This document shows positions 61,545 to 64,000 of a stretch of DNA of 64,000 nucleotides, in pieces. This stretch comes from Methanofollis liminatans DSM 4140. GTDB taxonomy: Archaea > Halobacteriota > Methanomicrobia > Methanomicrobiales > Methanofollaceae. The stretch is from contig NZ_CM001555.1 of the NCBI RefSeq assembly GCF_000275865.1, positions 1,700,967 through 1,764,966 on the forward strand, in the 5' to 3' direction. The position numbers and the translations under genes are program-made. The first letter of the stretch is position 1, and every line of letters starts with the position of its first letter. Under the pieces are notes generated by a model, which saw only the letters and a list, made by a program, of their open reading frames with translations, was not told the DNA's origin and made no database searches.

Positions 61545-63296
61545 TTACCGGCGCTCTGCTCCAGGGTGGGCGAACGAGCGGTTGGAAGCCACCGCCCGAT
61601 AGGGCACCCCGTAGAACCGGCGGTAGAACCTGTCCGCTTCTTCCTCGATCGCAAAGGCAAAGCGGTCGGGGTGGAGGAGATTTGCAATCGTCATCAGGCC
61701 GAGGATCCACCTGGGGCTCCCAAAATCCCAGGAAGGATGCATCGAGTAGACCCGCCCATTTTTGACCGCCGGCACGTCGAGACCGTGCTCCGTGCAGTAA
61801 CGGAGGGAGTCCTCCTCCGGGGAGGTGAGGAAACCCGACGTGAAGAGGTACTCGGGCGCGAGTTCGAGGAACTCCTCGCGGGAGATGCTGACGCCCGGTT
61901 TACCCTCCCGTACGATGGCGCGGTTAACGTAGGTGCCGCCGGCGGCCTCCACGAGTTTCCCCTCAAACCGGCCCGCGTTGAGGGCGAAGAGCGGGTGTCC
62001 CATCGCGTAGTAGACACGGGGCCGCGGTGCGTCTGCCGTTCGCTCCCTGATATAATCCAGCCGTTCCCGGATGTATCCACAGAGATCACGCCCGGCCTCC
62101 TCGCGCCCGGTCTGGTGCGCGAAGTCCATGACAAGGTCAAGATACGCATCGATGTTGTTCATCCGGTCGTGCAGTTCCTTCCCGAGCATCCCGGTCCGGA
62201 GCACCCTGGCCCAGATCCCGGCGAGGACTGATTGGTCCTGCACACCGAGGCAGTTCAGGATCGCCCAGACCATCTCCAGCCCCCGGGTGACCCGGTACCC
62301 GCCCATCATCCCGGGTTCGTAGAAGATCTCAGGACTGATAGGGCCCTGGACAGGGAGGGCATGGCCGCACGAGCAGACCGTCCTGGCCTCTCCGGAGAGG
62401 TGGGTGCCCATCGGACCGAAGAACTCCCGTTCGATACAGGATGTTCCGCAGGCCGGGCAGAAGGTCGTCAGATATCTCGTGCCCGGCGAGTTGAAGAGGT
62501 AGACCCAGGGCAGGATCGCGCGGAGCCGGTCACAGAGTCCCTCGCTCGCGTAGATTGTCGGTTCCTCCCCAGGCCCCGCGTCGCCAAAGGGGACGAACCG
62601 CATCACCTGCAGGGGGATATCGGGTGAGATCGCCGCAATCATCCGCGCCGCACCGAGCACCTCGTCTTCCCGGCCCCGCCGGTAAACAGCAGAGATCTCG
62701 ACATGCACCCCACCCTCGTGGAGCAGCCTGATCGTGCGCAGGACCGGCTCAACGCTCCTGGCCCCGCAGGCGCGGTAACTCTCTTCGGTTACCCCCTTGA
62801 GACCGACGTTGACAAAATCCACCAGCTCCCGGAGTCGCAGGGCGGACGCTTCGGTCATGTAGCCGTTCGTTGAGCACCCGACTGAGAGCCCCTCCTCCCG
62901 TGCTCTCTCCGCGAGTCGGCAGAAGGTCGGGAAGGAAGCGATCGGGTCGTTCAGCGCGAAGGCGATCCCGTTGCAGGCGTGGGAAGCGGCGAGGCCGAGC
63001 AGATCGTCGATGGTGAGGGCCGTGCCTGAGGCTGCAAGCGACTCCGCGTGCCCGACGAGGATCTCCGAGACGCACCCGCCGCACGAGAGGTTGCACCCGA
63101 CCGTGCAGACCTGGAGGAATTTCGCGCCGGGGAAGAAGTGAAGCACCGGCAGCGTCTCGATTGCAACGGGGAAAGCGGCGAGGAAGGCGTCCGGAAAACG
63201 TTCAACGATCCCGTTGCCATCGTTTTTGTACATCCGGCACCTGCCAGTTCCTCCTGGTGGAATATCGCATCCGACCTCACAGATAGTGCAGCGCAT
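61545..63296 (-). CDS. Radical SAM protein fused to a periplasmic-binding-protein-like domain
   Basis: 583 residues. The N-terminus opens with MRCTICEVGCDIPPGGTG and the cluster motif CTVGCNLSCGGC (C-x3-C-x2-C, about residue 64-75), followed by core radical SAM strands (GLSVGCSTNGYMTEAS, FVNVGLKGVTEESYR) and a zinc ribbon with CPACGTSCIER...CSCGHAL. The C-terminal 240 residues resemble the iron/cobalamin binding protein fold (BtuF/FhuD): YYAMGHPLFALNAGR, SREEFLELAPEYLF, TSGFLTSPEED. No signal peptide, so the binding domain is cytoplasmic here. It probably works on or with a corrinoid- or metallophore-like ligand (inference). Seven bases after the methyltransferase gene; operon. Confidence 0.8.
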   Translation of the reverse strand: MRCTICEVGCDIPPGGTGRCRMYKNDGNGIVERFPDAFLAAFPVAIETLPVLHFFPGAKFLQVCTVGCNLSCGGCVSEILVGHAESLAASGTALTIDDLLGLAASHACNGIAFALNDPIASFPTFCRLAERAREEGLSVGCSTNGYMTEASALRLRELVDFVNVGLKGVTEESYRACGARSVEPVLRTIRLLHEGGVHVEISAVYRRGREDEVLGAARMIAAISPDIPLQVMRFVPFGDAGPGEEPTIYASEGLCDRLRAILPWVYLFNSPGTRYLTTFCPACGTSCIEREFFGPMGTHLSGEARTVCSCGHALPVQGPISPEIFYEPGMMGGYRVTRGLEMVWAILNCLGVQDQSVLAGIWARVLRTGMLGKELHDRMNNIDAYLDLVMDFAHQTGREEAGRDLCGYIRERLDYIRERTADAPRPRVYYAMGHPLFALNAGRFEGKLVEAAGGTYVNRAIVREGKPGVSISREEFLELAPEYLFTSGFLTSPEEDSLRYCTEHGLDVPAVKNGRVYSMHPSWDFGSPRWILGLMTIANLLHPDRFAFAIEEEADRFYRRFYGVPYRAVASNRSFAHPGAERR

Positions 63297-63303
63297 CTCT
63301 CAA

Positions 63304-63945
63304 TCACTTCCGCATGATGATCCAGAACCCGGCCTCGTCCTCGCGGACCTCGCAGGCAGCGATACCGGCCTTCTCCAGGTCCTGCCTGACGGCGTCCAGG
63401 TTCCTCCGGGAGAGCCGTTCTGCGGCCTTCACCTCCCACTCGGGGTCGATCTCGCGCATCTTCGCCGTGATCTCCGCCTTCAGCGCGGAGGTGCCGAACC
63501 CGCCGCCCACAAACGTCCTCCCACCCGGCCTGAGCACCCGGTAGATCTCAGAGAACGCCCTGACCCGGTCGTCCCAGAAGAAGAGGGAGCCGCGACTCAC
63601 GACCAGGTCGATGGAGCCGTCATCGTAGGGCAGGTCGTGGACGTCGCCAGGGACCGGGTGTACCCGGTCGGTCAGTCCGGCCTCCCGAATATTCTGCTCT
63701 GCGATCGCGAGCATATCGCCCGATGCGTCGAGAGCGTCGATCTCAAGGCTGCTTGCAGCCCCGAGCGCCAGGGCAAGGTGACCGGGCCCGCACCCGATAT
63801 CGACACATCTACCCTCCCTGATCCCGGAGGTCTGGATGGCCTGCCTGGCGATGACCGGGTATATCGGTGCAAATGGTCCTTTCGCGATGGCATCCATCCT
63901 TCCCGCACCCTTGCCAAAAAACTGGTCATGTGGTTGCTCTGTCAT
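63304..63945 (-). CDS. Class I SAM-dependent methyltransferase, partner of the radical SAM fusion
   Basis: 213 residues: CVDIGCGPGHLALALGAASS (motif I), SIDLVVSRGSLFFWDD (motif IV), YRVLRPGGRTFVGGGFG (post-II). Substrate unknown. GAAGAGGAAC precedes the ATG. It precedes the radical SAM gene in the same direction; the operon may extend upstream beyond the window. Confidence 0.88.
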   Translation of the reverse strand: MTEQPHDQFFGKGAGRMDAIAKGPFAPIYPVIARQAIQTSGIREGRCVDIGCGPGHLALALGAASSLEIDALDASGDMLAIAEQNIREAGLTDRVHPVPGDVHDLPYDDGSIDLVVSRGSLFFWDDRVRAFSEIYRVLRPGGRTFVGGGFGTSALKAEITAKMREIDPEWEVKAAERLSRRNLDAVRQDLEKAGIAACEVREDEAGFWIIMRK

Positions 63946-64000
63946 GGTGTTCCTCTTCTAAATGTCGCTGCCACGGGCACGCAGATCCGCCGGTTGATCG
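63946..64000. other. Upstream end of window
   Basis: Fifty-five bases, only the ribosome-binding stretch of the methyltransferase gene is recognisable. Confidence 0.4.

Follow-up and report, generated by a model that had tools for sequence, protein, structure and literature searches.

A radical SAM enzyme joined to half a binding protein in a putative metal-chelate cassette of Methanofollis liminatans and other anaerobes

An importer operon at the window edge

The stretch of DNA analysed here (the window, 64,000 nucleotides) covers C1:1700967-1764966 of the single-contig 2.475-Mb genome of Methanofollis liminatans DSM 4140. Its last two genes on the minus strand encode a class I SAM methyltransferase (MTase; 63304..63945, 213 aa, ATG start) and, after a gap of 7 bases, a radical SAM enzyme joined to half a binding protein (the fusion; 61545..63296, 583 aa, ATG start). 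The list of open reading frames agrees with a preliminary description of the locus, which had reported two co-directional reading frames at this spacing. A methyltransferase as the partner had also been proposed there, and matches to Methyltransf_11/25 (Pfam; 86.4 and 81.6 bits) assign the protein to the class I SAM methyltransferases; it reached no equivalog cut-off in the NCBIfam search.

At the window edge, the MTase start overlaps by 4 bases with the stop of an ABC ATPase gene of the FecE/BtuD type, of which the window holds the 3' end (63942..64000, minus strand; full gene of 271 aa at C1:1764908-1765723 of genome G000). A FecCD permease gene (C1:1765717-1766823, 368 aa) and the gene of a lipoprotein binding protein (PBP; C1:1766823-1767935, 370 aa) lie beyond the window end. 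The operon thus comprises five genes in the order PBP-permease-ATPase-MTase-fusion, with the fusion gene as the last, and all of its junctions overlap except the 7-base gap between the MTase and the fusion. As the adjoining genes match PF01497, PF01032 and PF00005, they provide the binding protein, FecCD permease and ATPase that characterize an importer of the FecBCD/BtuCDF type. Apart from the 3' end of the ATPase gene, this part of the operon lies past the window end and was therefore invisible to the preliminary description, which had nevertheless linked a cytoplasmic fusion and a methyltransferase to metal-chelate uptake; the ABC importer genes in the fusion's own operon, beyond 64 kb, support this link.

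Upstream of the operon, all five relatives in the alignment share a TTAAC stretch. Repeated GTTAAC/ATTAAC elements are found upstream of the operon's first gene (L007:9937-10140, minus strand) and are a possible candidate site for a regulator. No decisive conserved regulatory site emerged when the sequences preceding the operon were aligned for five relatives and four loci of the Methanosarcina type.

Two known folds in one cytoplasmic protein

By sequence, the N-terminal part of the fusion is a radical SAM enzyme of the PflA/AmmeMemo type. Its Radical_SAM domain spans residues 64-212 (62661..63107, minus strand; Pfam, E 4e-13) and scores 50.2 bits against the PF04055 cut-off of 29.5, which places the protein in the radical SAM superfamily. 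The N-terminus (MRCTICEVGCDI) was read by eye as a cysteine cluster and corresponds to a four-cysteine motif, C3-X2-C-X3-C...C20 (63237..63290, minus strand). It is followed by the CX3CX2C [4Fe-4S]/SAM motif with C68, C72 and C75 (63072..63095, minus strand) and by a ribbon-like group of four cysteines, C280xxC283...C308xC310 (62367..62459, minus strand). All of these cysteines (positions 3, 6, 10 and 20; 68, 72 and 75; 280, 283, 308 and 310) are invariant in the 29 homologues aligned, one of which is cut short, and the first three of the N-terminal cysteines are present in 84 of 85 fusions, the remaining row being an over-long ORF. Neither a signal peptide nor a lipobox was seen when the N-terminus, MRCTICEVGC, was read by eye, unlike in the operon's PBP, which carries a lipobox-like LLCCGC; the radical SAM core lacking a signal peptide, as described earlier, is thus confirmed.

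At the family level the core matches AmmeMemoSam_rS and glycyl-radical activases best, and PflA is the best radical SAM structure among the PflA/NifB-like ones matched by Foldseek with the predicted model. These matches would suit an enzyme that modifies some protein or serves as the activase of a glycyl radical enzyme, the half binding protein being merely a docking module between proteins. Against this, residues 1-315 reach only 105.1 bits with their best NCBIfam match, TIGR04337 (AmmeMemoRadiSam), whose cut-off is 220, neither a glycyl radical enzyme nor a small precursor peptide was recognised beside the fusion, and its neighbours are metal-uptake genes. We therefore consider such a function in protein modification unlikely.

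The C-terminal domain had been described as a BtuF/FhuD-like binding protein. The type of fold holds against the alternative of an unrelated one, as Pfam, Foldseek and hhalign all recover it, but the domain is not a whole one. The Peripla_BP_2 match (PF01497; residues 383-521; 32.4 bits, cut-off 27.5) spans only positions 93-233 of the 235 in the profile and hence falls short of two lobes. In a profile-profile comparison with the operon's own PBP (hhalign, probability 99.8%), residues 378-572 of the fusion align with residues 147-352 of 370, a range that covers the end of the first lobe, then the spine helix and the second lobe; the bulk of the first lobe (N-lobe) is missing. On this sequence evidence the fusion C-terminus (61581..62165, minus strand) is the connecting helix and C-lobe of a class III binding protein without its N-lobe. 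Between the two parts lies a helical linker (62166..62294, minus strand), which follows a conserved EPGMMGGYR motif; it is defined by the AlphaFold2 model and by conservation and has no family match. The model is confident (pLDDT 87.5, pTM 0.87), and in addition to radical SAM structures it retrieved metal-chelate binding proteins with Foldseek (4hn9, 4pag, CeuE, BtuF and heme-binding proteins). The radical SAM barrel may occupy the place of the missing N-lobe.

A frame artefact can be dismissed as the origin of the fusion gene, because the 29 homologues, with identities of 44-86%, align with it end to end. Recoding of an in-frame TAG, considered for some homologues, was rejected as well: nearly all of these codons are ordinary stops just past the conserved C-terminus (NRSFYRP and similar). 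The homologue in L083 contains one internal stop.

Relatives and their metal context

Among 232 genomes of the class of the window organism, the fusion is present in many, not all, genera, and most of these genomes also carry a separate, shorter and unfused relative, whose score against the fusion profile is lower. The fusion was found in 34 of 186 genomes of the order of Methanohalophilus, some broken or partial copies being counted in, and, in a sample of 395 genomes of the phylum to which the Desulfobacteraceae locus belongs, in 8. Homologues from a pattern search include sequences of Methanoculleus, Methanolinea, Methanohalophilus, Desulfobacula, Desulfosarcina and Syntrophobacteraceae. 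The fusion is thus kept in Methanomicrobiales, in Methanosarcina-type genomes and in some Desulfobacterota; similar fusions in other methanogens had been anticipated, and they extend to sulfate-reducing bacteria.

Its neighbours are conserved across genomes, a point on which the preliminary description had made its proposal depend. Of the 76 fusions whose loci span at least 9 kb, 48 have an MTase homologue as their immediate neighbour on the same strand (about 28 have no directly adjacent one), 45 have a FecCD gene no more than 7 kb away and 51 have a full PBP at this distance or less. The order is PBP-MT-fusion-FecCD-FecE in Methanosarcina-type genomes and MT-fusion-TonB receptor-PBP-FecCD-FecE in Desulfobacterota, in some of whose clusters the gene of a TonB-dependent receptor occurs. 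Gene order therefore changes between lineages while the linkage of the cassette is kept.

Several further arrangements were seen in these regions. Two or three diverged fusion genes stand close together within single genomes (L094, L095 and L096 of G197, G203 and G201, respectively; L087, L092 and L093). A tandem double binding protein of 760 aa with two PBP_2-like units is encoded near the Methanogenium fusion (L042:6402-8684, L159:5286-7568), and bacterial clusters contain a cytidine-deaminase-like protein with an apparent signal peptide (L033:8599-9351, PF00383; L036:8396-9118; L146:3144-3809). A sister cluster combines an unfused short (~335 aa) AmmeMemo-like radical SAM protein with a FecBCD importer and a protein of ~390 aa (L099:3243-10172 and L100:4890-11893 of the same genus, L101:6865-12032, L033/L034/L036, L146 and L147). 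The latter protein family, which starts near 'IDAREWQN.FDL', has no Pfam or NCBIfam match, and its structure prediction reached a pLDDT of 32. The MTase family of the fusion clusters is often present in the sister cluster, too.

The metal context comes from these relatives. Of 83 fusions, 12 have a ModA-like gene (PF13531) at a distance of 10 kb or less, compared with 1.4 expected if placement is uniform, and one fusion neighbour passes the ModA equivalog cut-off. FeoB, used as a control, lies within 10 kb of none of the 83 (1.1 expected), and a link of the fusion to Fe(II) was rejected on this basis. In 19 genomes, ModA was found within 10 kb of 12 of 33 fusions and of none of 95 fusion-free FecCD loci, but these genomes were picked partly for showing ModA neighbours and, being related, are not independent; the figure of 12 out of 83 is therefore the safer one. 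In a quick tree with several long branches, the ModA-adjacent fusions have at least three separate origins among archaea, with others in bacteria. FmdE-family genes also recur near fusions in relatives. Six Methanosarcina-type genomes carry a second copy of the fusion next to alternative-nitrogenase genes (NifH, D, G and K, G being the small subunit; L130:7838-16743, L133:7025-15299 and L149-L152), and the tree shows these copies to be a duplication of single origin. One such genome (5,751,492 bp) is presumably that of M. acetivorans C2A. In the window genome itself no Mo, W or V gene was found near the operon, the listed ModA-like genes being more than 140 kb away. Mo, W or V, metals that form oxyanions, are thus the most likely candidates, as suggested by gene context in the relatives and not by the window locus.

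In some genomes the fusion lies divergently next to operons for nitrogenase and ModABC. This placement, and a half binding protein that could bind a chelate inside the cell, would be compatible with a sensor or regulator of metal-chelate supply in which radical or cluster chemistry serves as a switch. The fusion has no DNA-binding or kinase domain, however, and its cysteines for SAM radical chemistry are invariant, which makes a role as a sensor very improbable.

Tetrapyrroles are another candidate substrate: a corrinoid, F430 or heme might be remodelled or demetalated after uptake, in the manner of the ChuW/HutW pathway, in which a radical SAM enzyme encoded with heme-uptake genes degrades heme without oxygen (PMC12670364). 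The importer is a member of the BtuCDF/Fec superfamily; its best matches include BtuC and corrinoid-ATPase models, though these score far below their cut-offs, and the Foldseek matches to BtuF and heme-binding proteins point the same way. Yet the fusion has no SPASM, HemN_C or B12-binding domain (Pfam, E<=1) and no ChuW/HutW family match (NCBIfam, E<=1), no cobalamin riboswitch was detected in the Desulfobacterota (bacterial) loci scanned, and no cobalamin- or heme-synthesis genes were recognised among the fusion neighbours read, which include Mo, W and nitrogenase genes instead. One FMN riboswitch occurs in L037, far from the fusion. We regard a tetrapyrrole substrate as improbable, and the corrinoid or nicotianamine ligand considered in the preliminary description finds no support; genes of Mo/W transport and of alternative nitrogenase form the context in the relatives instead.

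A role in anaerobic metal acquisition

Our preferred reading, held tentatively and at somewhat less than even confidence, is that five genes, with the fusion gene as the final one, form an anaerobic metal-chelate cassette, in which importer, MTase and half-receptor radical enzyme process a metal-ligand complex. The relatives of the cassette in methanogens and some sulfate reducers, often near molybdenum-uptake or nitrogenase genes, make a role with rare metals probable, and the homology of the half binding protein to the operon's own PBP also counts in favour of this reading. The substrate of the fusion would most likely be a cytoplasmic metal-ligand complex, with Mo, W or V as the possible metal. 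The FecBCD-type importer would bring the complex into the cell, and the C-lobe, with the radical SAM barrel as its partner in place of an N-lobe, might hold the imported complex or the free ligand near the [4Fe-4S]/SAM centre. Chemistry of the 5'-deoxyadenosyl radical on the ligand and methylation by the partner MTase could then alter the ligand, so that the metal would be released or re-liganded for use.

One genome fits badly with an obligatory import of the chelate by FecBCD: G127 (97% complete, 190 contigs) carries the fusion beside an operon of ModA, a TrmO-like protein, ModB and ModC (L156, contig C110), and no FecCD gene was detectable in it. This argues for synthesis or intracellular handling of a ligand, at least in G127, and is easier to explain if the radical SAM enzyme and one or more MTases build a small metal-binding molecule, either a metallophore or a carrier of Mo/W inside the cell; the half binding protein would then recognise this molecule, and its loaded complex would be taken up again by FecBCD. 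Some fusion clusters indeed add methyltransferases (PF00891, MT33) and DUF364/DUF4213 'heavy-metal chelation' proteins, and DUF364 (PF04016), which occurs in the genomic context of Fe, W, V and Mo transport genes, has been proposed to function in the synthesis of metal-chelating flavin-, pterin- or siderophore-like compounds (PMC2954201). On the other hand, DUF364 occurs near only 16 of the 76 fusions and is missing from the window genome, and the clusters read contained no gene recognised as that of an exporter or an assembly line. In its minimal form, which the window genome has, the cassette comprises only two enzymes, and this bare pair together with an importer argues for processing of a ligand. 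Biosynthesis is thus a possibility to be taken seriously, though not a probable one.

A bolder version of the preferred metal-chelate cassette is conceivable, but doubtful. The fusion may be a clamshell enzyme in which a radical SAM barrel stands in for the N-lobe of a binding protein; it would capture imported complexes of Mo, W or V and break down or assemble their organic ligand by radical chemistry, as part of an anaerobic molybdo-, tungsto- or vanadophore pathway in methanogens and sulfate reducers.

All domains of the fusion are known; their arrangement, half a receptor on an intracellular radical enzyme, is new to us, and no description of it was found in the open papers searched. The AmmeMemoRadiSam enzyme (TIGR04337) shares the N-terminal four cysteines and the CX3CX2C radical SAM core, whereas the fusion scores below the cut-off of that family, carries half a binding protein and stands in an ABC-importer operon, among whose genes no AMMECR1 or MEMO-like partner was recognised. 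Class III binding proteins (BtuF, FhuD, CeuE, IsdE) have a homologous spine helix and C-lobe, but the fusion lacks their signal peptide and N-lobe and is joined to a radical enzyme. ChuW/HutW is similar in being a radical SAM enzyme encoded with metal-complex uptake genes, yet its radical SAM family differs from that of the fusion, and we know of no half binding protein in ChuW. DUF364 clusters overlap with some fusion clusters, DUF364 not being part of the core cassette. MolBC-A is an importer of the Fec/Btu type that carries molybdate or tungstate, for which no radical SAM or methyltransferase partner is known to us. It provides a precedent for the metal suggested here, set beside the cassette by its description; a published study presents it as a molybdate importer (PMC4031551). 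In its broad type, the cassette would represent metal-chelate uptake with an intracellular processing enzyme, the fusion being placed outside the AmmeMemo and ChuW families because it failed the tests for both.

Methanogens and sulfate reducers need Mo, W, Ni and Co, which are scarce in sulfidic settings, and to our knowledge hardly any metallophores or enzymes that process chelates have been described from strict anaerobes. The cassette is probably an undescribed part of rare-metal acquisition in these organisms. With its conserved combination of importer and half-receptor radical enzyme, and with two fusion copies in the presumed M. acetivorans C2A, a genetically tractable laboratory strain, it would make the question of how anaerobes obtain such metals amenable to experiment, and the fusion shows that lobes of binding proteins are put to use inside cells.
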